Positions 2,653 to 50,006 of a DNA stretch of 55,348 nt are shown here, in pieces. Source of the DNA: a virus. Location of the stretch: positions 1 through 55,348 of the IMG/VR virus record IMGVR_UViG_3300010370_000047; one strand, written 5' to 3'. A model generated the notes under the pieces. That model ran no database searches. It saw only the letters and a list, made by a program, of their open reading frames with translations, and had not been told where the DNA came from. The stretch's first letter is position 1. Every line of letters starts with the position of its first letter. The translations under genes and the position numbers were made by a program.

Positions 2653-2693
2653 AGGAGCCCTAGAATGTAAAAAAATTAGGGTTCTGTTTTGTG
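2653..2693 (+). promoter_or_regulatory. hairpin that brings a distant Shine-Dalgarno close to a GTG start
   Basis: AGGAG (2653-2657) is 33 bases from the GTG at 2691, too far for normal initiation. CCCTA (2658-2662) can pair with TAGGG (2677-2681), extended by a G-U pair. Folding this out leaves AGGAG 9 nt from the GTG. No other Shine-Dalgarno is present, and the GTG is fixed by alignment with the downstream paralogue. T4 genes 25 and 38 are known to use such a hairpin. The loop also holds an ATG directly followed by TAA. Confidence 0.5.
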
Positions 2694-3323
2694 TCTCAGC
2701 TCCTGACCTCTCAGCTTCAGCAAATCGAGAGATTTCTCGCTGAGCAAGGGGTCATTTTTACTGACCAGATAACAGACGCAACTAAACGCGAAGTTGTATA
2801 TGCAGCAGTAAATCAATTAACCCGTAACGGTTTTGAAACAGAAAGTCATGCTTTATGTCAGTATGATTTTGATCGTGTCTGTTATCACTTAAATTACAAT
2901 ATAGCTTCGGTTGATCCTGCCGATTACTCTCGATTACTAGAAGCTTGTAATAACATTCCTAGTGAATTTTATTACGGTAAAGTTGTAGAGCAGATACAAC
3001 GCTGCGAGACAGCAGAACCCCTCTGTGAGCTAGCTAATAATCGCGCTACTAATCGTCAAGAAATAATTTTGGGTGACGGTACTGAAATCTTGAATCGTTC
3101 TATCGCGATTCAAGATAAACGTGTTGTTGCCCGCCTGTGGCGAGAAAACTATTTATTCGAATGTGACCGATTGTCTCACATTCTTCATGTCGTTAATTAT
3201 AAAGATCCGGTAATAGCCCAGTCCCGTTTTATCGAGACTGAGGGAGATTTTATTCAGGGTTATCCTGGTCCTCCTAATCCCGCTTTGGCGGATGATTTGT
3301 ATTTTTCTACCAATTGGCACTAA
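2691..3323 (+). CDS. virion-region protein, first copy of a tandem pair
   Basis: 210 residues, no recognised family. It is the paralogue of the next gene: the two align from the first residue (QQIERFLAEQG against EQIQSYLAQQG) to the last (YFSTNWH against YFYTNWR), with about half of the residues identical. Shared blocks include a Tyr-rich middle (DYSRL, ACN.IPSE), a DKR.....WRENY block and PGPP near the end. The end-to-end match fixes the GTG start, which lacks a nearby Shine-Dalgarno. A head-tail joining or tail role is possible from position only. Confidence 0.6.
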   Translation: MSQLLTSQLQQIERFLAEQGVIFTDQITDATKREVVYAAVNQLTRNGFETESHALCQYDFDRVCYHLNYNIASVDPADYSRLLEACNNIPSEFYYGKVVEQIQRCETAEPLCELANNRATNRQEIILGDGTEILNRSIAIQDKRVVARLWRENYLFECDRLSHILHVVNYKDPVIAQSRFIETEGDFIQGYPGPPNPALADDLYFSTNWH

Positions 3324-3353: not shown

Positions 3354-3974
3354 GTGGCTGATTTAACTACGCAAGAATTAGAACAGATCCAGAGTTATTT
3401 AGCTCAGCAGGGTATTGTTTTTCAACCGGATACGGTTGATGGTACTAAACGTGAAATAATATACGCAACGATTAATCAGCTTGCCAGAAACCCTGCCCAG
3501 GTTTTCGGATATCGTTTAGACGATTTTAACTTTAGTCGTGTCGCGTATCATCTTGGGTACAACATAGCCACGGTTCCTGCTGGCGATTATTCCCGCTTGA
3601 TGCAGGCTTGCAACAGTATTCCCAGCGAAGTTTACGTCGATAAAATTGTGCAGCAGATTGAGCGCTGTGAAGAAGCAGAGCGTCTAACTGAACTTGCAAC
3701 TGGGCGTGCCACAAGTCGTCAAGAAACGATTTTGGGTGACGTTAACCGCTCCATCAATATCCAAGACAAACGCGAAACAGCTCGTATCTGGCGCGAGAAT
3801 TATGTGTTTGAAACGGATCGTTTGGCCCAAATGTTGTACGTGGCTAACTATCGGAACCCGGTAACAAACAGATATCGGTTTGAACGTAGCGGAGCTTCAT
3901 TCGTTCAGGCTATTCCGGGACCTCCTACAGCATCTCGTGCTGATCGAATTTATTTTTATACGAACTGGCGCTAG
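3354..3974 (+). CDS. virion-region protein, second copy of a tandem pair
   Basis: 206 residues, closely related to the preceding gene along its whole length, so the pair arose by tandem duplication. Unlike the first copy, this GTG start has a normal Shine-Dalgarno (GGGAG just upstream). The copies differ by small indels near residue 130. Duplicated structural genes often form hetero-oligomeric rings or alternative subunits, but no specific role can be assigned. Confidence 0.6.
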   Translation: MADLTTQELEQIQSYLAQQGIVFQPDTVDGTKREIIYATINQLARNPAQVFGYRLDDFNFSRVAYHLGYNIATVPAGDYSRLMQACNSIPSEVYVDKIVQQIERCEEAERLTELATGRATSRQETILGDVNRSINIQDKRETARIWRENYVFETDRLAQMLYVANYRNPVTNRYRFERSGASFVQAIPGPPTASRADRIYFYTNWR

Positions 3975-21941: not shown

Positions 21942-23813
21942 ATGACCACTTACCGTCCTCTTGTTATTGTTAGCGGGCTCGTCTCCGCATTACCTGCAGG
22001 CGATTCGTTTTCTGCTGGTTCTGCATCCTCTTCGCAGCTTATCGGCACAAGCGGCCTTGTGGGCAGTGGGTCAGTTAATGGTGCTGTTCGTTTAGACGTA
22101 CAACCCGCTGTTGCTTCCAGCGGAGTTATTTTTACAGATTCGGCTTTAGGTTGTGACGGCGCTGCTTTTGCAACCGCAACAACCGCTCAGGCGTCAGGTA
22201 CTGCAGCTCTTAGTTTAAGTAGTACTGCTCAAGCCAGCGGTAATGCCGCTATTTCGCTGGCTCTTACTGCACAAGCTTCGGGTAATGCCGCTTTAGCCGG
22301 AGCCGCCGGGACATCTACTAATGGACCCACGGCAACCTTTACAGCTGGAGTCACATTTAGTGCAGGCGTTGTTCCGGCTGGGTTAAATAATGCGAATCTT
22401 ATTGAGCCTATAAGAGTTGCCACAACTCCCACTGTATCTCAATCTGTCACTACCTTCCCTAGTGGGAATACCCCGATGGGATCAACCTGTACTTATCATT
22501 CTGCTCAAAACAGAACTGTTAATGTCTTTGCTTTTCCAGGCACTTATTATCCCGCAGCTAACGTATGCCAAGTCGTCTCGGGATCTGGGACCTGGACTAC
22601 TCCCGTTATTCTTGAATCTGTTGGTGTAGGCACCGCTCAAGTAGTTTCCACTTATGAACCTACAAGTCAACGCATATTAGTTACCTATGCCTCCGGTGGC
22701 ACTAGTCTTAGGGGCATAGTATTATCTTTAACTGGTTCTACTATAACCGCATTTTCACAGGGTGCATTTCTTAGTGGTGCTTATATCTACTATGTGGATC
22801 AGGCAAGTAATTCCGCTGGCTCTAATATTGTATTAGCTTATACAGATAATACTACTCTTTCAGCCCGTATTGTTACCATAAGTGGCAACACCGCTACTTA
22901 TGGTACAGCTGTTGTAGTACGCAGTTCAAATAATCCATATCCTGTTAGATTAGCTGTTTTAACATCTACTAAATTCTTTATAATGTATTCTACAACCGTT
23001 GGCATTTTGGCTAACGTTTGCACAACCGCAGGCACTACTATAACAGTAAATAGTACTTATACACTTTTTTCTTATCCCGCTCAAGGACCTGACTATTTCG
23101 GTTTAGCTTATCATGTATCCGGTGACTATTTACTAGCAGCTTTTTACATTAATACGGATACGTATCCAGTTCCTTTTGAGTATAACTGTTTGTATATTAC
23201 TGTTAGTGGCACTGTTATTTCCGTTGTTAACTATACAAATCTTGGATCGTATGGAAATTTTTCTAGTTTTGCTTATCTAACGTATTCGTCTAATTTAAAC
23301 CGCATACTTCTTATAGACTGTTACTATAATCGTGTTGCACAATTTTATTTATATGGAACTGTTCCTTATTTAAGCAATGTGCAGGGCGGCGCCGGGTATA
23401 CTTACAGGTGTATTCAACCTGCCTATGACTCTACTTCTAATACCTACATTACTGCTGGGGATAATCTTACTTCTACTAATACTGGTAATGGCATCGTTAC
23501 TTCAATCAGTGGAAATTATTCCATTTTACCGACCAGAAACGGTTTTAATAACTTTATAGGTTTAGTCAATACTGCGGCTGGTGTTCCTAGTGGAACTTCT
23601 ACAACAGTAACGCTGCCGGGGGGCTACGTAAGACGAAACGCTACCACATTCAGTTCTAACCAAAAAATATATTTGGGTGACGCCTCTGTACAGTATTCTG
23701 ACACTTACAACTTATTACCTAATAATTTGCCGGGTTGGAACTCAGATCTTCCCTGGACCAACATCGGCTATTCAGCTACTGCGAGCGGTATTCTGGTTCT
23801 AAAATCTATCTAA
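21942..23813 (+). CDS. long tail fibre, member 1 of a three-gene family
   Basis: 623 residues in three parts. The N-terminal module (PLVIVSGLVSALPAGDSF) is shared with the genes at 23844 and 26052. Residues about 85-125 are 14-residue repeats of the form TAQASGNAALSLAL, two heptads each, probably a trimeric coiled coil. The middle has blade-like repeats (ILVTYASGG, IVLAYTDNT, FIMYSTTVG) resembling a beta-propeller, and the end carries an NGFNNFIGL tip module. It is more AT-rich than the chaperone cassette. Likely receptor-binding fibre. Confidence 0.7.
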   Translation: MTTYRPLVIVSGLVSALPAGDSFSAGSASSSQLIGTSGLVGSGSVNGAVRLDVQPAVASSGVIFTDSALGCDGAAFATATTAQASGTAALSLSSTAQASGNAAISLALTAQASGNAALAGAAGTSTNGPTATFTAGVTFSAGVVPAGLNNANLIEPIRVATTPTVSQSVTTFPSGNTPMGSTCTYHSAQNRTVNVFAFPGTYYPAANVCQVVSGSGTWTTPVILESVGVGTAQVVSTYEPTSQRILVTYASGGTSLRGIVLSLTGSTITAFSQGAFLSGAYIYYVDQASNSAGSNIVLAYTDNTTLSARIVTISGNTATYGTAVVVRSSNNPYPVRLAVLTSTKFFIMYSTTVGILANVCTTAGTTITVNSTYTLFSYPAQGPDYFGLAYHVSGDYLLAAFYINTDTYPVPFEYNCLYITVSGTVISVVNYTNLGSYGNFSSFAYLTYSSNLNRILLIDCYYNRVAQFYLYGTVPYLSNVQGGAGYTYRCIQPAYDSTSNTYITAGDNLTSTNTGNGIVTSISGNYSILPTRNGFNNFIGLVNTAAGVPSGTSTTVTLPGGYVRRNATTFSSNQKIYLGDASVQYSDTYNLLPNNLPGWNSDLPWTNIGYSATASGILVLKSI

Positions 23814-23843: not shown

Positions 23844-25709
23844 ATGGCTAGTCGCATCCCTGTTGTTACCATTAGTGGGCAAATCTCACAGTTGCCTCCT
23901 GGGGATTCCGTTTCAGGAGCTTCCTTTGGATCTTTTGTAGCTGGTAGCGGATTAGCAGGCTCTGCGGCTTTTGGTTCCAATTTAACTCCTTCTATATCAC
24001 TCAGTTCTAATCCGAGTGGATTATTCATTAGTTCAGGTAGCCTCGCCAATAACGGATCTGATTTAGTCGCAGCTTCCTCCGCCCTTGCCAGTGGCGTTGC
24101 TGCTAATTCGGCTGCCACTGTCGCACTTGCCAGTGGGAATGCCGCTTTCCCCATCGCAAACTCCGCTTTAGCCAGCGGTAATGCGGCGTTATCCACTATC
24201 GCTTCCGCGCCTGCTGGAGTATTTCAAGCATACACAGCATCGTCTACTGTTATATCCGGATCTCCCGTTGGCGTGGACAACTCAAATCGAATTCAAACGA
24301 TCCGTACTGTTCCAACAGATTTTCCAACATTTTCTTCTCAAGGTACTCTTACCACCGGGGGCGGGAATTCTAACAATAATAACACTGCTTACGATTCTAC
24401 AAATAACCAAACTATATTAGTTTATCAAAATTCTTCTGGTTATCCAACGGCTGTTGCTTACACAGTAACAGGGACAACTGCAACAGCGGGTACACCCGTT
24501 GTTATGGAGTCTTTTTCTGGTTTTCCTAGTATTGTTTCTATAAATAGTACACAGTCTGTCGTAGTTTACACTCGATCGGCAGGTAGTGCAGGTACTATTA
24601 GAGCCGCTGTTCTTACATCGTCAGCTGGTAGAACTGTTTCTTTTGGGGTTGTTGGTACTGCGGCGACAAATGTGTACAGTTATGCCGGGTATAACCTTAC
24701 TCCTATTGGCTACGATGTTTCTACATCTAGAGTAGTTGTAGCCTATCTTCGTAGTACTACTATTGATTTATTTGGAATTGTAGGTAGTATTTCCGGTACA
24801 ACTATAACATGGGGCACTCCTACTGCAATTGACGCTAATAATAATAATTACAGTACATACGCATCCTTTGTCTATTTTTCTTCCCAGAGTAAATTATTAA
24901 TTGTATATTATGACAGTGCTGTTACTGGCACTGGGCTTGTACGATACCTTACAATTTCGGGTTTAACTCTTACGCCATCTACTGCTTCTACGTTTTATTC
25001 AGGTACATCTTATTTTATATCTACTGCTTATTCTACTGTCGCAAACAAGTGTGCCATCTTCTTTGAGAGCTACGCTAATGGAGTTTCTGCCGTTGTCTTA
25101 GATTTCAATGGGTCCACTTTTAGTGCAGGCTCCCGCACTGTATCTCCATCTTTATATAACGCTGATTATTATTACTATATGAGTTCTGCCTATTATTCTT
25201 CTTCGGATAAGTTTATTGTTACTGCTGGTTATACTAATTCTGGCGCTGTTGTTTGTAGCATCGTAGGCACCTCCATCATCTTCGGTCCGTTTCGTGCCTT
25301 TCCCGACTATTACAACACCGCTAATTATACATCAGTATCTTTATTTTCAAGTTTAGGGGTATTTGTCGTTGTAAGATTGATCGCGAGCGGTGCAATAGCT
25401 TATTACGTTGTAACGTCTTTATCATCTAATTTGCTACAACCCACTAAAAATGGCTACCCTAATTATATTGGGGTCGCTCAAAGCACCGTTGCTAGTGGAT
25501 CTTCTATTAATGTTAGGTTGCCTGGGTCTGTCGACAAGAATCAAACCGGATTAACTACTGGTTCTTTCTATTATTTAAATCCCACGACTAGCGGCATAAC
25601 GACAGCCTCTGGCCAGCCCGCAACCTGGAGTGGGAGTTACCCCGAGAGCTGGCAACCAGTAGGAAAGGCTATAAACTCTTCGAGTTTGATTTTAACTGGT
25701 ATACTTTAA
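23844..25709 (+). CDS. long tail fibre, member 2 of a three-gene family
   Basis: 621 residues with the same plan as the gene before it: the PVVTISGQISQLPPGDS head, coiled repeats around ALASGNAAL, a propeller-like middle with VVYT, VVAYL, IVYYDS strands, and an end module NGYPNYIGVAQ ... TGLTTGSFYYLNPTTSG. The middle differs strongly from member 1, as expected where receptor specificity diversifies. The head and end are shared. Confidence 0.7.
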   Translation: MASRIPVVTISGQISQLPPGDSVSGASFGSFVAGSGLAGSAAFGSNLTPSISLSSNPSGLFISSGSLANNGSDLVAASSALASGVAANSAATVALASGNAAFPIANSALASGNAALSTIASAPAGVFQAYTASSTVISGSPVGVDNSNRIQTIRTVPTDFPTFSSQGTLTTGGGNSNNNNTAYDSTNNQTILVYQNSSGYPTAVAYTVTGTTATAGTPVVMESFSGFPSIVSINSTQSVVVYTRSAGSAGTIRAAVLTSSAGRTVSFGVVGTAATNVYSYAGYNLTPIGYDVSTSRVVVAYLRSTTIDLFGIVGSISGTTITWGTPTAIDANNNNYSTYASFVYFSSQSKLLIVYYDSAVTGTGLVRYLTISGLTLTPSTASTFYSGTSYFISTAYSTVANKCAIFFESYANGVSAVVLDFNGSTFSAGSRTVSPSLYNADYYYYMSSAYYSSSDKFIVTAGYTNSGAVVCSIVGTSIIFGPFRAFPDYYNTANYTSVSLFSSLGVFVVVRLIASGAIAYYVVTSLSSNLLQPTKNGYPNYIGVAQSTVASGSSINVRLPGSVDKNQTGLTTGSFYYLNPTTSGITTASGQPATWSGSYPESWQPVGKAINSSSLILTGIL

Positions 25710-26051: not shown

Positions 26052-26795
26052 GTGACTGAATACTCTCCTCTTGTCTTAATAAGCGGGGCGTATAGTCAAC
26101 TTCCGCCCGGTGATTTCATTGAGGGAGTGAGTCCGGGGACCGTTACCCCCGTAAGTGGTTTAGGCGGCGGTGGAGACCTAAACGCTGGGAATGTTTCCGT
26201 TTTTATTCAATTAAGTGCTAACCCTAGTGGACTCATCTTCGCCAACAACCGGTTAGGTTTTGATGGTGTTTCGCTTGTTAATTCTGCCGCAGCTTCGGCT
26301 TCTGGGAACGTAGCCCTTAGTACCGCCAGTCGAGCTTTGGCAAGCGGTAATTCCGCTCTGTCTCTTGCTTCTACAGCTCTAGCGAGCGGGAATGCGGCTC
26401 TCTCAGCTGCGGCAGCCGCAGGTACGGGCGCTGCCAATAGCGCTACTTTTACAGCAAGTGGTCCCCTTCTTTCTGGTACTCCAGTCGGCTTTGACAATCG
26501 CGGCTTTGTACAGGCGGTCTTTGGAAGCTCTCCGACTAATAACGGATTCAATAATTTTTTAGGAGTAGCTCGTTCTGCAGCAGCTAGCGGCGGAACCGTT
26601 ACTGTCGATTTTGCCGATACTGTCGTTACTAATCAAACAGGGTTAACCACTGGATCTACTTATTACGTAAATCCCACCACGAGCGGCTTTACTACAGCTT
26701 CTGGTCGACCTGCTTCCTGGACCGGCGCTATCCCGTGGGCACCAGTAGGTCGGGCTGTGTCTACTTCGGGGCTACTTCTTTTCAATATTATTTAA
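26052..26795 (+). CDS. short tail fibre, member 3 of a three-gene family (lacks the middle domain)
   Basis: 247 residues. The head (PLVLISGAYSQLPPGDF), the 14-residue coiled repeats (ALASGNSALSLAST) and the end module (NGFNNFLGVARS ... TGLTTGSTYYVNPTTSG) all match members 1 and 2, but the roughly 300-residue propeller-like middle is missing. It looks like a deletion derivative that could act as a short alternative fibre or as an end piece for the longer ones. The GTG start has AAAGGAA upstream. Confidence 0.7.
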   Translation: MTEYSPLVLISGAYSQLPPGDFIEGVSPGTVTPVSGLGGGGDLNAGNVSVFIQLSANPSGLIFANNRLGFDGVSLVNSAAASASGNVALSTASRALASGNSALSLASTALASGNAALSAAAAAGTGAANSATFTASGPLLSGTPVGFDNRGFVQAVFGSSPTNNGFNNFLGVARSAAASGGTVTVDFADTVVTNQTGLTTGSTYYVNPTTSGFTTASGRPASWTGAIPWAPVGRAVSTSGLLLFNII

Positions 26796-39117: not shown

Positions 39118-39762
39118 TCAGAGGGAGAAGTCGATTGAACCAAGAGCAGCGGTTGCCACTTTCCCTTTTTCGGGATCGGCTGCTTTTTTCGGAGCAGTCC
39201 GCGTGGACTTCGGCAGATAAAGGATCTTTGAGACGTTGTAGTTAAGGTATTGCTTATCGTCCTTTTCACTCGTGTTTACGTTGCCCACTGCGATTGTTGG
39301 GGTTCCGGGGGCTAACTCAGATAACTGTTTCGAAAGCTCAGCCCAGGCAGTGAGCTTGAACCACGATGTCTCATTATCTTCTGTTTGCCAGGCGAGAGAA
39401 CGGTTGGTGACTGTTGTGTCAGACAACTCAACTTCATCTGCTTTAGGACCCAGACCTCCCGTAGCTACAAACAGATTTACCGCAAGAAGATCGTCAAAGT
39501 TTTCTTTCGTAACGATCAGAATTGGTTGCATCTGTAGCACACCGTCCGGCGTTGCCCGCGTAGGACCAATCGCTAGAAATGTTTCGTCTTCGGTCAGCTT
39601 CTTAATTAACTTTCCGACGTAGTGATCTTTAGTCTGGATTAGTTGAATCTTCGTAGGTACACGCTTGTCGTTTGACGGAAGAGCTTCCGCCAACGCGTTT
39701 ACTTTTTCATCGTCTATTTCTGCTTCAGCAGTTAGTCGCAGTCCCAGGATGAAAACGTTCAT
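39118..39762 (-). CDS. ssb: single-stranded DNA-binding protein (OB fold)
   Basis: 214 residues. Residues about 95-190 follow the SSB pattern: VNLFVATGGLG..ADE, then RSLAWQTEDNETSWFKLTAWAELSKQLSEL, then IAVGNVNTSEKDDKQYLNYNVSKILYL. The N-terminal 90 residues form a second domain of the same flavour (MNVFILGLRL). The linker is Lys/Ala-rich and ends GSIDFSL, a variant of the SSB tip. Likely coats ssDNA during phage replication. Confidence 0.6.
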   Translation of the reverse strand: MNVFILGLRLTAEAEIDDEKVNALAEALPSNDKRVPTKIQLIQTKDHYVGKLIKKLTEDETFLAIGPTRATPDGVLQMQPILIVTKENFDDLLAVNLFVATGGLGPKADEVELSDTTVTNRSLAWQTEDNETSWFKLTAWAELSKQLSELAPGTPTIAVGNVNTSEKDDKQYLNYNVSKILYLPKSTRTAPKKAADPEKGKVATAALGSIDFSL

Positions 39763-43713: not shown

Positions 43714-44523
43714 TCAAGCCATTCGGCTTTTAAAGAAGTTGAGTAGATAGCTATCGATATCAGCCCACATCTCCTTCATCATCTCTCCCTTTTCGGTAGC
43801 TCTAATTTTGTAGTAGACACGTTGCATACTTTCGGCTCGTCCACTCGTGTTCGAACGTGAGGATCCGACTGAGATCCCGCTTTTTTGCTCCACGAGATTA
43901 TGCTTGCCGCACCACTTGAGTCCTTCCCGGAGGCCAATGTAGATAGGGCTCACGTGGAATGTATGCTTTCGCTCGACACCCGGCTGTAATTCCAAGGGCT
44001 CCCAACTGTATGTGCCTGCTTTACTTACTTCGCGGAAACCTTTGAAAAGAACAGAAGCGCTAGTGATATCTGTTGTTTCCCAACAGGAGTTCGCATATTT
44101 TACTGCGATGTCTTTGAGTGTTGTCCATTCGTCATTTCGTACCGAGGTGATCAACAGAGCCGCTCCGGTTGCCCAGTAGCCGTTTGCACTGCAGAGCGTT
44201 TCGATCAGCTCTTCTACGCCTGTCTCGACGGTAGGTTCAGGTGCCTTCATCCTGGGGGCTCGTACAGCACGTACAGCAGCCTTCTCGGTCGCATCACCGC
44301 CTTTGTGGGTCACCGACATCTTGAAAGCAAGAGACGCCAGAGTCGGGTTCTCGTGCTTAACAGCCATATCAAACAGCTTCTTACTGTCGATGGTGCTGAC
44401 GTTGATTACCTTGGCGAGATCGATCTCGAAAGGTTTCCGCCGTTCCGGGTGAGCTACCTCCATGAGGGCCATTGCCTCATTGTGCTCGATTGGTGTGCTT
44501 TGCAAAAGAAATTGAAAGGTCAT
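43714..44523 (-). CDS. unknown replication-block protein
   Basis: 269 residues, unrecognised. The first 80 residues are helical. The C-terminal part (about residues 190-245) has a wing-like pattern (LREGLKWCGKHNLVEQKSG ... RVYYKIRATEKG) that could be a winged-helix DNA-binding unit. It is the last gene of its transcript, which ends at the hairpin at 43660. A 14-bp palindrome just upstream may control it. Confidence 0.45.
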   Translation of the reverse strand: MTFQFLLQSTPIEHNEAMALMEVAHPERRKPFEIDLAKVINVSTIDSKKLFDMAVKHENPTLASLAFKMSVTHKGGDATEKAAVRAVRAPRMKAPEPTVETGVEELIETLCSANGYWATGAALLITSVRNDEWTTLKDIAVKYANSCWETTDITSASVLFKGFREVSKAGTYSWEPLELQPGVERKHTFHVSPIYIGLREGLKWCGKHNLVEQKSGISVGSSRSNTSGRAESMQRVYYKIRATEKGEMMKEMWADIDSYLLNFFKSRMA

Positions 44524-44601: not shown

Positions 44602-45183
44602 TTACCCTTTTGTCTTACCGCATACACCCGTTGTCTTTATCGCTTCTGCGCTCTCGACATTGGCTTTTCCTTTCCGGTCCCTGTCGATGACCTCTAACCA
44701 AGCTTTTATATCTTTCAGTATCTCGCAGCTAATTTCTTGTAGGTCTTGGGATTCCAGAATTACGTTGTTGTAGAGATCAGATAACTCGTGGATACCAAAC
44801 GCTTCCTTTAAATATTTTTTTACAGGTATACATATGTCGTAACTAATACCCTGCTGTACAGGGGATACAATTGATATTACTTTAGGTCTATCTATTAGCT
44901 GTATTATGGTGTCTTCAAACCAAACTTTCGTAATCGTATTTTCTTGTACTAGGATATGACTGGGAGCATAGAACTCCTTTAATAGGTATACTTCTATCTT
45001 TACTTCTAGTTCTGATTCAGTAATATTACAAGAACAGTAATGTTCTACTACCTTTTCGAAGTCCTCGTTAGTTGTCTGGTAACCTGTCGTCAACTCTTCT
45101 CCACAAAGGTTTTCCGTCGATTTTTCCGTAACAAACGAACAATCCGGTGCCCGTAGCATACAGGGATCCGAGGGAAGCTTCAT
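44602..45183 (-). CDS. unknown protein of the MoxR/VWA operon
   Basis: Up to 193 residues, unrecognised. The first 39 codons overlap the preceding gene in another frame, so the true start may be later. The rest is mixed alpha/beta with many Glu, Ile and Val (ELEVKIEVYLL, KVISIVSPVQQGISYDI). It is the last gene of the operon. Confidence 0.4.
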   Translation of the reverse strand: MKLPSDPCMLRAPDCSFVTEKSTENLCGEELTTGYQTTNEDFEKVVEHYCSCNITESELEVKIEVYLLKEFYAPSHILVQENTITKVWFEDTIIQLIDRPKVISIVSPVQQGISYDICIPVKKYLKEAFGIHELSDLYNNVILESQDLQEISCEILKDIKAWLEVIDRDRKGKANVESAEAIKTTGVCGKTKG

Positions 45184-45325
45184 GATAAAACTCAGGAGGA
45201 ACCTTGAAGAATGGACCGATATCTATAGCTTCTATAGCTTTTAGCGTTCTCCTGAGTTTATACTCGTCTTTAATTTTTTCGATTTCGTCTGCGGGGTCTG
45301 ACCCCATCGTAGTTACCGCAAACAT
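45068..45325 (-). CDS. small unknown protein after the VWA gene
   Basis: 85 residues. Its ATG overlaps the VWA stop by 13 bp, so the two are coupled. A charged helix (DEIEKIKDEYKLRRTLKAIE) precedes a short beta domain (GLFVCYGKIDGKPLWRRV). No family recognised. Confidence 0.45.
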   Translation of the reverse strand: MFAVTTMGSDPADEIEKIKDEYKLRRTLKAIEAIDIGPFFKVPPEFYHEASLGSLYATGTGLFVCYGKIDGKPLWRRVDDRLPDN

Positions 45326-46863
45326 TTCTGAATGGAGTCTACAGTTGTTTCGTTGTTACGTAGGTCCACGGAGTAAACCTCATCACTGAAGTCCTTACAT
45401 ACACTCGGAACTTGCATGTTGATACAGATCGTAGACCACTGTGTTCCAGTATCATTTTTAAACTTGGTTAGTCTCCTTTTAAAGTTTTCATTTACTTCTG
45501 AGTTACCGTCAGTAATTAAAAGAACATCGGCCCGATCCCCCACAACACCTTTATCTACCGCGTGGGCTATTACGGCGTTGAAACTGGTCCCGCCACCTAG
45601 AGTCCAGTCGCCAATAAAATCAATTAGTTCCTTGTTATTCTTTCTATCCGCTAAAAGCACTACGGATTCTTGTATGCGTGTATCGAACAAGTGAATTCGA
45701 ACTTCACGCTTTTCTCTGAGAGCTTCTTCAGTCACAACAAAAGCTATTGCTTTACTCCAGATTTCTGCGTCTCCCGACATCGAACCTGAAACGTCCACAT
45801 AGAGAACAATCGGCCCCTTACCCTGCTCTTTTAAATTTGCCGTGTAGTCTTTAGTTAATAAAGTTTTTTGGGAATACTTCAGAGCAAAGAGAGCACGTCC
45901 CTGCGGTGTGTTTGCTAACGCAATCTCTGTCGGGAATGCTCGGGTCAGATCGTCGCTAAACTTTGCTCCAGTTATCGCTTCATAATTAGCTGCTGTCTTC
46001 TTAGCTCGTTTACGTTCGTGCCACACACGACGCAACGCACCAAGTTTTTTAATGATTGCTTTTAGATTTCGGTTACTCTTTAGTTTCTTCGCCAACTCTC
46101 TCTTCTCCGCGAGGTTACCTGTTGAGTGCCCTTGGCCAGCCTCGGTTCCGAACAGATTACTAATGCTCTCATCCGTATCGTCATTGTTCTTAACTGCATC
46201 GTCAATCACCTTGTGGGTTTGAGGTTGGATTGCTTCCCTTGCTTTCTGGAGTGCTTCGTTAATCGCTTGATTCAATGCCTTGCCGGCCATTCTCGCTTTT
46301 TGGGCGGCATCTTTATCTCCTTCGCTCACAGCTTTTTGATACTGTTCGCGAAGTTTCTGTAGTTCTTCGCTGCCGTTCGTAAGTAGTTGTACGTCGAACT
46401 GCTTTTCTTCTATAGCCTCTTCGATAATCTCAGAGATACTATTGATAACGTTGACAGCGTTGTTTCCAGCATTGAACTGCATACCTACGCTTCTGCGTAG
46501 AAGTTCCGGCCATGCCGCAGCCTGAGTCAGGTCGCTCATAATCGCCCACCAGATACCGTTTTCTGGTTTGTAGCCTTCTGGTATCGCTGTTGTGTCTCCG
46601 TTGCACACCTTTCGGTAATACTCCTCATAGGCATCCTCGGAGATCAACCACGTAACGTTATCTGCGTTATACAATCTTTCAAACAACTCCTTACCAAAGC
46701 GTGAAAGTTGTTTGATGTTGTAATGATCTACCAGGTAATGCACTGTTGGGCGAGCATCCCTAACGAAATCTCCCCACAGGAAATCCGCCAGCGCGGAGCA
46801 GGCTAAAGTCAGAGGCTCATTGTTGACGAGCCTTACAAGCTCGCTTTGTTTTGTGAATTCCAT
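45313..46863 (-). CDS. VWA-domain protein (CobT/ViaA-like partner of MoxR)
   Basis: 516 residues from an ATG one base after the MoxR stop. The N-terminal 170 residues are helical with Trp-rich spots, followed by a long charged coiled segment (about 150-230). The last 180 residues are a von Willebrand A domain with the MIDAS motif DVSGSMS near residue 357, a Thr in GGGTSFN and Asp in LLITDGNSE. CobT, ViaA and related proteins share this helical-plus-VWA plan and work with MoxR ATPases. It should recruit substrate for the adjacent ATPase. Confidence 0.75.
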   Translation of the reverse strand: MEFTKQSELVRLVNNEPLTLACSALADFLWGDFVRDARPTVHYLVDHYNIKQLSRFGKELFERLYNADNVTWLISEDAYEEYYRKVCNGDTTAIPEGYKPENGIWWAIMSDLTQAAAWPELLRRSVGMQFNAGNNAVNVINSISEIIEEAIEEKQFDVQLLTNGSEELQKLREQYQKAVSEGDKDAAQKARMAGKALNQAINEALQKAREAIQPQTHKVIDDAVKNNDDTDESISNLFGTEAGQGHSTGNLAEKRELAKKLKSNRNLKAIIKKLGALRRVWHERKRAKKTAANYEAITGAKFSDDLTRAFPTEIALANTPQGRALFALKYSQKTLLTKDYTANLKEQGKGPIVLYVDVSGSMSGDAEIWSKAIAFVVTEEALREKREVRIHLFDTRIQESVVLLADRKNNKELIDFIGDWTLGGGTSFNAVIAHAVDKGVVGDRADVLLITDGNSEVNENFKRRLTKFKNDTGTQWSTICINMQVPSVCKDFSDEVYSVDLRNNETTVDSIQKCLR

Positions 46864-46864
46864 G

Positions 46865-48052
46865 TTACTTAGTGATGTCATTGATTGCTCTAGCGAGGGT
46901 CTCGCAGTGTGTTTGTAACTGTTGGACAAGCTTTACGCCTTTTGCCCGCGTGGACACACTCATCTTGAAGTTCTTACCATCAAGAATTTCATTTACTTTT
47001 TCGACAACTGTAGTCATGTCTCGGTGATACTTCCGCATCGAGATAACGTCATCATTTAGCTCTGACAGTCCGCGACTCTGGAGTCTGTGATTACGGCTAG
47101 AGTACTCAGCCATAATCCCAGCGGCTGCTCGTTTCGCATCGGCAAAGATACGATCAGCCGTAGGCACTTCCTGCTCTAACACTTCCTGAATAATTTTCTG
47201 ATCCTCCTGTGTTTGGTATACGATATGGATTATAGAATTGTGCATGTGTTCTGGGTGAAGAATATCGTCCCCCTGAACAATCGCCCACGCTTTCAGGAAC
47301 TTAAGAATTTGTACACGCCTGCGGTCTGAAATTACAATGCTCCGTTGTTCGAGTGCTTGCCAAACACAGCTAAACTCTTCTAGAAACTCGTCAGAGATTT
47401 TGATTGTCGCTGCCTGATCTTGCAGTTCTTTAAGTTCTTCTAGAGTTAAATGCTCTCCTACGTTTGGTCTATCCTCCATCCCCAGCGCCCAGGCATCCAA
47501 CAATCCTTTCGATGCTGGCTTCTTAAGCGGTTCCACCGTGGGCCTAAACAGGAATCGATCAGCAAATGCCTGGAGTGATTCCTCATCAGGCCAACTGTTT
47601 GTTGCTGCGATTATAGATTGAATAGGTGTTTCTACATTTGTCTTACCGTTATTAAACGTTCGCTCATTCAGGAGCGTTAGCAGCGAGTTTAGAATCGCTG
47701 AGCTTCCCCTAAATAGTTCGTCGATAAACGCAATATGGGCTGACGGTAAGTAACCATCGATATCCCTCGTGTACTCATCGTTTAGGAGTTTGCTCACCGC
47801 CACTGGGCCAAACACTTCTGATGGGTCAGTGGTCGGGGTAAGCAAGTAACCAAAGTAACTGGCCTCCGTAATACCTTTACAGAGATTTCGAACCAAGTCA
47901 GACTTACCTGTTCCGGGCTTTCCTAGCAGAAAGGCATTCTGTTTGCTGAGTAGGGAAGCCAGCAAACCGTCGACAATGTGTTCCCTTTCGAGTGTTGCTG
48001 CGTTCAGCGCACCACGAAATGATTGAAGCTTCTGGAAAAGTTGATCCTGCAT
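46865..48052 (-). CDS. MoxR-family AAA+ ATPase (CobS/RavA-like)
   Basis: 395 residues from the ATG at 48052. Walker A GKPGTGKS (about 44-51), Walker B HIAFIDEL (D111, E112), sensor 1 in IIAATNSWP, and ADRFLFR as the arginine-finger region identify a MoxR-type AAA+ protein. T4-like cyanophages often carry a CobS gene of this family; CobS with CobT inserts cobalt in cobalamin synthesis, while RavA/ViaA remodel other complexes. Its VWA partner follows one base later. Confidence 0.8.
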   Translation of the reverse strand: MQDQLFQKLQSFRGALNAATLEREHIVDGLLASLLSKQNAFLLGKPGTGKSDLVRNLCKGITEASYFGYLLTPTTDPSEVFGPVAVSKLLNDEYTRDIDGYLPSAHIAFIDELFRGSSAILNSLLTLLNERTFNNGKTNVETPIQSIIAATNSWPDEESLQAFADRFLFRPTVEPLKKPASKGLLDAWALGMEDRPNVGEHLTLEELKELQDQAATIKISDEFLEEFSCVWQALEQRSIVISDRRRVQILKFLKAWAIVQGDDILHPEHMHNSIIHIVYQTQEDQKIIQEVLEQEVPTADRIFADAKRAAAGIMAEYSSRNHRLQSRGLSELNDDVISMRKYHRDMTTVVEKVNEILDGKNFKMSVSTRAKGVKLVQQLQTHCETLARAINDITK

Positions 48053-48063
48053 GATGATTGTTT

Positions 48064-48273
48064 TTAAAGTTCGACAGGTTTTGGACGTGGGAAAGGGAGG
48101 TAGGCAACGTCTACCCAACAAGTTTCAGTGAGTCTTTTTCTGACAGTTGTTAGCCGTTCGACTGCAACCTCAAAACTTACAAACGTTACGGCTTCAACTA
48201 TGTCTTCTGTGTACCGTTCCAAATCACTCAAATAACCCTTCTCAGATTCAATCACGTGAACTAATCTCTGCAT
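48064..48273 (-). CDS. small protein in the MoxR operon
   Basis: 69 residues, unrecognised, helical with an Arg/Lys-rich middle and a Pro-rich end (YLPFPRPKPVEL). It begins in a TAATG overlap with the upstream coiled-coil gene and ends 11 bp before the MoxR start, which indicates a fixed operon member. Confidence 0.5.
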   Translation of the reverse strand: MQRLVHVIESEKGYLSDLERYTEDIVEAVTFVSFEVAVERLTTVRKRLTETCWVDVAYLPFPRPKPVEL

Positions 48274-49478
48274 TAGAAGTCCACCTCGATATCTGATACA
48301 TCTTTGTTGTTCTCTGCTACTTCAGCTATAAGTTCATCTAACTTTCCTCCAGCGGTTTCGATGAGTTCCCTACGCTGTTCCATTAGTTTCTTCAGTTTCT
48401 TGGATCGTTGTTCATAAATGTCAACCTCCAGATTTACATCCTTCATCAGAAGATTGAGACTGTTGGAATTCTCAGCCGATTTAATACGCTCGCACAAAGT
48501 CTTGTAAGACGACGAGAGAGCCAAGGACTGTTTGAGCTTTTCGAGTCCTTTCGAAGTGTCCCGTGAGTTACAAATCGATTCCAGCTCCTCGCGTATCTCA
48601 GTTTGAATCTGATAGAAGCTTTCCGTAGCGTTCTGCCGCGAGGCCGCGTGGGTAGATTGCAGTCCCGCTCCACTTTCAAGGAGTCGACCCGCCAACTCTG
48701 CGAGCTTATCGAAGCCAGCAACTGAGTCACTAATAAGTTGTAGTTTCTCTGCTGTGATCTGCCAGCTGCCACGTTTCTTCTCCGATCCTGTTTGTTGTTT
48801 ACCTACTTTGCTAGCGATTCGAATATCCAGGTCATCCAACAGTTCAGCTCCAATCGTTAGAGCTTTATCAGCTGCTCCTTGTTTCGCTGCCTCTAAAACT
48901 TTCTGAGTGTTGATGGTGTTTTCGAACTGAATAAAAGAATCGATATCGCCTTCAACAGGCTTGTCGACTTTCTGAAGTGAGATCGGAAGTGGCCCCAAGA
49001 CGCTAACTCTGATGGGAGTTTTGTATTCATCTTTTGTTGGAAAAATACGCATGTAAGCATCGAACGCCACCGCATACTCTTGGTCGTCTTCAAACAGTGG
49101 TTTGAGGATATTTTCTGTAGTTGTCTGCCACTTGGTGAACTCTTCTTCCCAAAGATCCTTTAACCTCGCGTTAGCGTCTTCGGCCTGCGCCTTAATTGTT
49201 TTAATCAGAGCGTTAGCGTCAGAAAAATAGTTAGCAGTGACAAAATGATTATCGCCGTAGTGAATGCAATAGCTATCGTACAGTTCACGCTGAAGAACAC
49301 GTAGTCCATCAAGTTCTTTCTTGAGAGCATTACTCAGGTGAGGACGAATGCTAACAGTGTTACTGGCTTCCAGCGTATCAATAACCGATTGCGGAAGTTT
49401 TAGGTCGTCGAACTTGAGTTGAACTGATTGCCTTACATCAGCTCCGATTTGACATGAAAGCAAATAATGCGTTGTCAT
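48273..49478 (-). CDS. long helical protein of the MoxR/VWA operon (DUF3150-like)
   Basis: 401 residues from the ATG at 49478 (a TTG at 49511 is possible). It is almost entirely helical with coiled-coil stretches (SKKLKKLMEQRRELIE, AELAGRLLESGAG). Length, composition and position beside a MoxR ATPase and VWA protein resemble the DUF3150 proteins that accompany such pairs in bacteria. The family match is from memory and needs profile search. It heads the operon and might be a substrate adaptor or scaffold. Confidence 0.5.
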   Translation of the reverse strand: MTTHYLLSCQIGADVRQSVQLKFDDLKLPQSVIDTLEASNTVSIRPHLSNALKKELDGLRVLQRELYDSYCIHYGDNHFVTANYFSDANALIKTIKAQAEDANARLKDLWEEEFTKWQTTTENILKPLFEDDQEYAVAFDAYMRIFPTKDEYKTPIRVSVLGPLPISLQKVDKPVEGDIDSFIQFENTINTQKVLEAAKQGAADKALTIGAELLDDLDIRIASKVGKQQTGSEKKRGSWQITAEKLQLISDSVAGFDKLAELAGRLLESGAGLQSTHAASRQNATESFYQIQTEIREELESICNSRDTSKGLEKLKQSLALSSSYKTLCERIKSAENSNSLNLLMKDVNLEVDIYEQRSKKLKKLMEQRRELIETAGGKLDELIAEVAENNKDVSDIEVDF

Positions 49479-49577: not shown

Positions 49578-50006
49578 TCAGGATTTCTTTAGACGATTGA
49601 AAGCCAGGGTGATCTTCTCAGTCAGCTCGTCGCATTCTTGCGACGCAACCAGCTGTTCTGCCGTGTGCTTCAGCTGCATCTTCGCCAACTTCAGCTCGCT
49701 TTCGAGCTTCTCCACCTTGGCTGCCAGCTTCTCCAGCTTGCTGTGCGGTGTGGGTTTACGGTGAATGCGTACAACGATATTCGTATTAAATTGAGGGAAC
49801 TTGAATCGGCTAGTCTCACCAGAGAACACTGAAAGATCTAAGCCTTCTGTATCTGCGATCTTCACATCACGGAGTAGGTTATCTTTTGCGGCGTCATAAG
49901 GTACGCCGAAGGATTGCGTTAGCTGGGCATTAGCTTCGTCAAACTCAGAGAAGCACTCGGCAGCGATCTGGCCGAGATCAATCAAGTCTGATGTACGGAT
50001 GGTCAT
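49578..50006 (-). CDS. unknown protein with C-terminal coiled coil
   Basis: 142 residues from the ATG at 50006. The N-terminal part (LGQIAAECFSEFDEANAQLTQSFG) is helical, the middle has strands (FNTNIVVRIHRK), and residues about 95-135 form a coiled coil (KLEKLAAKVEKLESELKLAKMQL). No family recognised. The leader before the ATG is C/A-rich without a Shine-Dalgarno. Confidence 0.5.
   Translation of the reverse strand: MTIRTSDLIDLGQIAAECFSEFDEANAQLTQSFGVPYDAAKDNLLRDVKIADTEGLDLSVFSGETSRFKFPQFNTNIVVRIHRKPTPHSKLEKLAAKVEKLESELKLAKMQLKHTAEQLVASQECDELTEKITLAFNRLKKS

Follow-up and report, generated by a model that had tools for sequence, protein, structure and literature searches.

MoxR/VWA machines are frequent on phages and plasmids, and the substrates of almost all of them are unknown; the phage copies of CobS/CobT type are usually taken as cobalamin genes. 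The DNA considered here, 55,348 nucleotides of the IMG/VR record IMGVR_UViG_3300010370_000047 (hereafter the window), carries a MoxR and a VWA gene in a compact block on the minus strand, where all the features given below with coordinates lie. This raises the question of what kind of machine these genes encode, which partners belong to it and on what it acts. Tentatively, we favour a remodelling machine of mobile DNA elements that is driven by ATP and has three parts; its most likely target is a replication/recombination complex. The window belongs to an uncultured phage, the host of which is probably a cyanobacterium. A search with small ORFs, aimed at the host, gave one contig-end match and one marginal match in 386 cyanobacterial genomes, too weak to weigh much, and none in 369 genomes of gammaproteobacteria.

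Extent and conservation of the gene block

Six touching or overlapping genes had been described at positions 44602–49478 in an earlier sequence-only reading, and all of these ORFs were found there. In the direction of transcription, they are P401 (48273–49478), P69 (48064–48273), the MoxR AAA+ ATPase (46865–48052), the ViaA-like VWA protein (45313–46863), P79 (45068–45307) and P193 (44602–45183). The start of P69 overlaps the stop of P401 (TAATG), 11 bases separate P69 from MoxR, one base separates MoxR from VWA, and P79 and P193 share 116 bases. The retention of the gene order in 36 viral contigs in the first scan and the dN/dS of about 0.04 for P401 (window against L002) show that the block is not a product of chance; for MoxR and VWA, the synonymous sites in the same comparison were saturated.

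The order p142–P401–(P69)–MoxR–VWA is conserved across 67 distinct MoxR sequences. VWA adjoins MoxR in all 63 loci where this could be tested. Upstream sequence is available for 58 distinct phage MoxR loci, of which 51 have P401, the same number have p142, and 40 have P69, a small accessory protein missing in divergent phages; in five, DUF6744 takes the place of P401. In one in-clade contig (L018), MoxR and VWA are present and P401 was not detected. The conserved unit is p142, P401, (P69), MoxR and VWA. This corrects the extent of the block as first delimited. The p142 gene (49578–50006), located outside the original interval, belongs to the block and leads it. On the other side, P79 was found in some relatives only, mostly at 31–38%, and P193 is mostly matched as fragments. 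Both are fast-evolving and probably stay outside the machine, and the earlier idea that these two small 3' genes are parts of it is unsupported because they are barely conserved in relatives.

The p142 protein is small and matches no known family. Its AlphaFold2 model is mostly helical; four of the five p142 models were poor, and nothing was matched in the fold search. Between the cassette and the DNA polymerase gene lies p269 (43714–44523), recognised at 31–64% in nearly all relatives. It is followed by the strongest terminator-like hairpin along the direction of transcription (43681–43660), with a 9-pair stem and a T-rich tail, which ends the cassette before DNA polymerase A; therefore, the transcription unit probably begins at about 50.1 kb and ends at 43.66 kb. 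Promoter-like sites showed no excess over shuffled sequences.

Motor pair and third protein

The intact Walker A and B motifs noted earlier were recovered in MoxR. Walker A (GKPGTGKS, 47900–47923, residues 44–51), Walker B (FIDE, D111 and E112), the sensor N152 and the DR pair (D165, R166) are fully or almost fully conserved among 21 relatives. The protein matches the Pfam family bpMoxR (E 1e-56), named after the MoxR-vWA ternary systems, as well as AAA_lid_8 (6e-6). Among curated families, its AAA+ core is closest to RavA: the NCBIfam RavA model gave E 1.4e-41 and 143 bits, below the equivalog cut-off of 681 bits, and RavA was the sole solved relative found in the PDB (3e-35, residues 7–268 only). 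Beyond residue 268, the C-terminal triple-helical and LARA region of RavA is unmatched, and MoxR is 395 residues long versus 498 in RavA.

The VWA protein consists of a helical N-terminal part and a C-terminal VWA domain. Its MIDAS motif DVSGSMS (45775–45795) is completed by T426 and D452, and the five residues D357, S359, S361, T426 and D452 show no variation among 24 relatives, so that the MIDAS is complete, as had been proposed. It matches the NCBIfam ViaA model (1.7e-15) and VWA_CoxE (2e-8); hhalign aligned it with Salmonella ViaA (E 6e-14) over 264 columns, covering the middle region and the C-terminal VWA, and gave no alignment to ViaA for the first approximately 230 residues. Judging by these profile matches, the motor pair is of the RavA/ViaA type, not of the CobS/CobT type.

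P401 matched no Pfam or PHROG family. It is similar over its full length to proteins of cyanobacterial plasmids (hhalign E 2e-15; E 1e-9 to 1e-12 with a phage-only HMM). Its homologues are situated immediately upstream of MoxR–VWA on Acaryochloris and Chroococcidiopsis plasmids and directly upstream of this pair in Nostoc, at a locus retrieved with a MoxR query. In 386 cyanobacterial genomes, a clear P401 was found in Nostoc only, together with two weak partial matches of about 120 residues; no tblastn match was obtained in cultured phages, and the P401 peptide pattern was not met in bacterial genomes. Because it adjoins MoxR–VWA on phages, on plasmids and in Nostoc, P401 can be considered a working part. 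The proposal that the MoxR/VWA pair has a third protein of its own is strengthened by the plasmid homologues, which accompany the pair as an adaptor should. Neither of the adverse outcomes named beforehand, the placing of P401 and VWA in unrelated families or the lack of co-occurrence in related phages, arose.

The AlphaFold2 model of P401 (pLDDT 79) has a mixed alpha/beta N-terminal half, long helices and a predicted disordered acidic tail. Foldseek related this model to viral DUF3150-type proteins with a probability of 1.00 and a modest TM-score of 0.35–0.42 for the best matches. With hhalign, P401 and DUF3150 gave a sub-threshold probability of 56% (E 1e-4), decoys being at far lower probabilities. 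The Pfam DUF3150 model had no match in the window or in the 26 members of the P401 alignment, and no PDB fold was found with E below 0.001. Thus, the kinship of P401 with DUF3150, as suggested by a modest structural match and sub-threshold profile scores, would be remote. The identity of P401 with DUF6744 was rejected (hhalign probability 0.4%).

The C-terminal Val-Asp-Phe of P401 is encoded at 48276–48284, and a terminal [DG]F was found in every relative. In 53 distinct tails, the ending is DF in 52 and GF in one; GF also ends the homologues from Nostoc, Acaryochloris and Chroococcidiopsis. The two terminal residues are preceded by an acidic, variable stretch. A dedicated third protein common to phages and cyanobacterial plasmids and having a simple tail motif offers a handle on the targets of these machines, and the presence of the three-gene set on the plasmids makes a new partner of a common, poorly understood machine accessible to testing.

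Proposed action and alternative explanations

In the proposed machine, the MoxR ATPase, presumably a hexameric ring of RavA type, would be the motor. The ViaA-like VWA protein would dock onto this ring, and its MIDAS would grip an acidic ligand. P401 would join the motor to the target, with its tail serving as a docking element. We infer mutual binding of MoxR, VWA and P401 and an adaptor role for P401, which could also be a client. The target would most likely be a replication or recombination nucleoprotein complex of the phage because the cassette sits in the replication/recombination module. Its neighbours in the window are DNA polymerase A, a D5-type primase, an exonuclease and the SSB-like p214, and the VWA gene of the Aphanizomenon phage CL131 is directly next to a sliding-clamp gene. 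In haloviruses, AAA+/VWA genes are also located in the replication module, and their role is likewise unknown (PMC7911831). Gene neighbourhood alone is no proof of function.

It is unlikely, in our opinion, that MoxR and VWA are a virion-assembly chaperone remodelling a structural protein in head or tail maturation. The experimental precedent is the MoxR/VWA pair p618/p892 of Acidianus two-tailed virus, reportedly shown by experiment to have a role in tail development, and we know of no other experimentally studied viral pair. MoxR proteins of this type are detectably related to the phage MoxR, and for jumbo phages of group 2.2, an assembly function has been proposed (Iyer et al., PMC7824862). 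However, the cassette and the structural genes are on opposite strands, DNA polymerase A lies downstream of the cassette in the relatives that have both, and homologous triads occur on conjugative plasmids, which form no virions.

A role in host takeover or counter-defence, where the motor would disassemble or inhibit a host complex, for example a defence complex, and P401 would recognise the target, also seems improbable. The same module travels on both phages and plasmids, which alike gain from evading host defence; takeover functions are often found among replication-side genes, and MoxR-vWA ternary systems of multicellular bacteria, cyanobacteria among them, were proposed to act in conflicts (PMC7159879). 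However, PADLOC gave no meaningful match to a known defence protein, so that a known defence system was rejected, and nothing in the cassette resembles a VMAP third component or effector domains. Moreover, P401 is about as conserved as the DNA polymerase, which is unusual for a protein in an arms race.

Ordinary RavA/ViaA action on a respiratory or metabolic complex of the host, with P401 as a mere neighbour, is suggested by the family resemblance of the phage pair, and is quite improbable in view of the unmatched RavA region past residue 268, LARA included, and the constancy with which P401 stays beside MoxR–VWA on phages, plasmids and in Nostoc. Finally, the idea that MoxR and VWA replace CobS/CobT and use the host CobN, raising cobalamin for phage replication, as CobST clusters of phages and archaeal viruses were interpreted (PMC8651126) and as the sequence-only reading had allowed, is scarcely credible and was rejected, since RavA and ViaA models match strongly and no NCBIfam CobS or CobT model does (the same library recovers both from the DUF3150 loci L292 and L299), the PHROG porphyrin-biosynthesis family phrog_249 is matched at E 0.006 only, and a very long branch separates the phage proteins from CobS-like sequences in the MoxR tree. 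For RavA-type phage copies, this argues against an annotation as cobaltochelatase.

Comparison with known systems

The preferred remodelling machine has several parallels. The RavA–ViaA system of enterobacteria has the same AAA+ core, AAA_lid_8 and a helical protein with a C-terminal MIDAS VWA, encoded by neighbouring genes in identical order. The differences concern the LARA-containing C-terminal part of RavA and the N-terminal part of ViaA, which have no counterparts recognisable by alignment, and the phage block adds P401, P69 and p142. Binding of LdcI and of respiratory complexes is a further trait of RavA. The pair p618/p892 and the jumbo-phage MoxR-vWA are likewise viral, but these were described as virion assembly factors, whereas the present cassette is part of a replication module; in addition, the jumbo-phage VWA carries a metallopeptidase fusion (PMC7824862). 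The VMAP, iSTAND and FtsH ternary systems (Kaur et al. 2020, PMC7159879) also combine MoxR and vWA with a third protein, but Pfam revealed neither a component of the VMAP, STAND or FtsH kind nor a variable effector domain in the cassette proteins. Systems with DUF6744, known from plasmids and other phages, comprise a RavA-like motor, a VWA and a third gene upstream or downstream, which differs from P401 in having no profile similarity to it.

The three-part layout is shared with the AAA+ (CobS-like)/DUF3150/VWA (CobT-like) triads of Gammaproteobacteria, the third protein of which also ends in an aromatic residue and may resemble P401 in its predicted fold. DUF3150 adjoins the CobS-like and CobT-like genes in all nine bacterial loci inspected; six of these contain a YqaJ recombinase, one a primase and one an SSB. 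In one stretch of an IncC plasmid, DUF3150 was absent. Unlike the phage pair, the motor and VWA of these triads are of another lineage, recognised by CobS/CobT models, and HExxH, not present in the phage VWA, occurs in the two VWA partners that were fully read. It is conceivable, if rather doubtful, that P401 and DUF3150, and perhaps DUF6744 as well, can replace one another as the third subunit in a class of AAA+/VWA machines not recognised before, which would remodel replication/recombination complexes across mobile elements. P401 and DUF3150 might then dock via a conserved C-terminal aromatic tip, by analogy with the acidic tips at the C-termini of single-strand-DNA-binding proteins.

Composition and conservation of the cassette

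The minus-strand cassette at 44602-49478 consists of the genes of P401 (48273-49478), P69 (48064-48273), a MoxR AAA+ ATPase (46865-48052), a VWA protein (45313-46863), P79 (45068-45307) and P193 (44602-45183). The near-zero spacing of these six genes, the intact Walker A/B of MoxR and the complete MIDAS of the VWA protein, described in the sequence-only reading, were all borne out. Using MoxR as a query, 36 viral contigs were found (64-91% identity, all uncultured), in which the gene order p142-P401-P69-MoxR-VWA-...-p269-DNA polymerase A is kept; p142 (49578-50006, minus strand) opens this block and p269 (43714-44523, minus strand) precedes the polymerase. After addition of a P401-led scan and a second MoxR-led scan, 67 distinct MoxR sequences were obtained in total. 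The VWA gene adjoins that of MoxR in 63 of 63 loci with sufficient downstream sequence. P401 and p142 were each found in 51 of the 58 loci with sufficient upstream sequence and P69 in 40 of these, counts that are biased upward by the P401-led scan; the MoxR-led loci alone agree with them. Against the closest relative, P401 has a dN/dS of about 0.04; for MoxR and VWA, the synonymous sites are saturated. In L005, L014, L022, L028 and some other relatives, the genes are spaced less tightly, with several hundred bases separating P69 from MoxR or MoxR from VWA.

DUF6744 is an alternative third gene of MoxR-VWA in phage and plasmid loci (L271, L272, L273, L275, L278, L038, L045, L047 and L048), and the first five of these are among the seven loci without P401, where it is encoded upstream of MoxR. 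The other two are L277 and L018. The latter, a clade member on a 45.8-kb contig, carries MoxR-VWA, and P401, p142 and P69 were not found in the 6 kb upstream, which hold several small repeated ORFs, beginning like HPITPPPELVQQW. P79 and P193, included earlier in the six-gene operon, are not counted as parts of the machine, because matches to them were confined to some of the relatives and were mostly weak.

P401 and its acidic tail

No family match above the cut-off and no match among cultured phages were found for P401. Immediately upstream of plasmid MoxR-VWA in Acaryochloris and Chroococcidiopsis lies a hypothetical gene of 442-469 residues, the product of which is homologous to P401 over its full length (hhalign E 2e-15; single-pair BLASTP E 1e-10). 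The plasmid copies are recovered by a phage-only model of P401 (1e-9 to 1e-12), as is a copy in Nostoc sp. S4, at a locus for which MoxR rather than P401 had served as the query. The family is rare, with a clear match in Nostoc only among 386 cyanobacterial genomes sampled.

The AF2 model of P401 is fair (pLDDT 79, pTM 0.65) and gave seven significant viral Foldseek matches, all of probability 1.00, followed by a steep fall in score; one of them carries the name DUF3150. Against a profile of nine DUF3150 proteins, the probability was 56% (E 1e-4), and at slightly changed settings 61%; other pairings did not exceed 1%, and the highest-scoring reversed-self decoy reached 19%. P401 is thus probably a remote relative of DUF3150 and not its member.

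DF terminates 52 of the 53 distinct P401 tails and GF the remaining one; GF is also found at the end of the Nostoc, Acaryochloris and Chroococcidiopsis homologues, and F or W ends all nine DUF3150 proteins. As a background, F is terminal in 12% of the longer ORFs of the examined loci with P401 counted, or about 4-5% without it by subtraction. The final 25 residues are acidic (means of 7.2 acidic and 1.1 basic) and hardly conserved, and model confidence is low at the extreme end. Acidic tails with a partner-binding terminal Phe also occur in bacterial SSB and T7 gp2.5, which we take as a lead only. The SSB-like protein p214 of the window (39118-39762; Pfam SSB E 0.002, below cut-off) ends in GSIDFSL, invariant among its relatives. 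GF is also C-terminal in two DUF6744 proteins (L271, L048). In the literature searched, neither a description of the P401 family or the common tail nor mentions of DUF3150 or DUF6744 were found.

The motor pair and its counterparts

MoxR matched bpMoxR (1e-56) and AAA_lid_8 in Pfam and RavA in NCBIfam (1.4e-41); RavA was also the sole solved relative found (3e-35, residues 7-268). The VWA protein matched ViaA in NCBIfam (1.7e-15), and its alignment with ViaA of Salmonella spans 264 columns (E 6e-14). MoxR and VWA score under the RavA and ViaA equivalog cut-offs, no similarity to RavA was found for MoxR past residue 268, and the phage VWA protein does not align with the N-terminal portion of ViaA; therefore, judged by sequence, the pair are RavA/ViaA-type and not RavA and ViaA themselves. 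The CobS/CobT relationship considered earlier was not upheld, as neither model matched MoxR or VWA in the NCBIfam search, a meaningful negative because DUF3150 loci did yield CobS and CobT matches in the identical search. In the MoxR tree, the P401-linked phage proteins form one group (support 93/85) that is separate from RavA of enterobacteria; in this unrooted topology, they lie close to sequences from cyanobacterial plasmids.

In nine gammaproteobacterial loci (L292-L300), DUF3150 lies in every case near genes for an ATPase with Walker A and for a VWA protein with MIDAS, the VWA gene adjoining it; the single ATPase tested matches CobS, and both VWA proteins tested match CobT. A YqaJ-type recombinase is present in six of the nine, one of which also has SSB, and a primase in one of the nine. 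Thus, motors of two separate lineages occur in this layout of motor, VWA and third protein, and that of the DUF3150 loci is tied to recombination genes. Close to their N-termini, both fully read VWA proteins of these loci have an HExxH motif resembling that of metallopeptidases.

Host, target and known systems

The window is an IMG/VR virus record of 55,348 bases. Its first 31 kb, mostly on the plus strand, carry structural genes (major head protein, minor tail protein, fibres, endolysin). Two adjoining genes (2691-3323 and 3354-3974), each of about 210 residues and visibly alike, form a tandem duplication. Three successive proteins (21942-23813, 23844-25709 and 26052-26795, a small gene intervening before the last) share an N-terminal motif of type SGxxSxLPxGDxxxG and are probably repeated fibre or appendage proteins. 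The minus strand at 33-44 kb encodes a D5-type primase, an exonuclease, the SSB-like protein and DNA polymerase A, and the cassette lies upstream of the latter, separated by p269 alone. The host is likely a cyanobacterium, since the nearest relatives of this polymerase are those of Pseudanabaena phages PA-SR01 and Pam2 (27-28% identity across the whole protein) and cellular homologues of P401 are known from cyanobacteria only.

MoxR proteins are ATP-driven chaperone-like motors with VWA proteins as adaptors (RavA-ViaA, CbbQO; PMC10585395, PMC9489729, PMC4660213). P401 would be the part specific for the target, and its tail may be offered to MoxR or to the MIDAS of the VWA protein. In our opinion, a DNA-replication or recombination target is favoured because of the position in the replication module, the linkage of DUF3150 with YqaJ and the case of CL131, where a sliding-clamp gene abuts the VWA gene. 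A role in virion assembly, for which Acidianus two-tailed virus offers an experimental precedent and which was suggested for jumbo phages (PMC7824862), is less likely, as plasmids with the three homologous genes build no virions. A counter-host role seems about as probable as one in assembly. Among published systems, MoxR of cyanophage S-CREM1 belongs to another subfamily, CGN (PMC9964418), viral cobST clusters were reported as cobaltochelatase (PMC8651126), and ternary MoxR-vWA systems have been proposed as conflict systems (PMC7159879).
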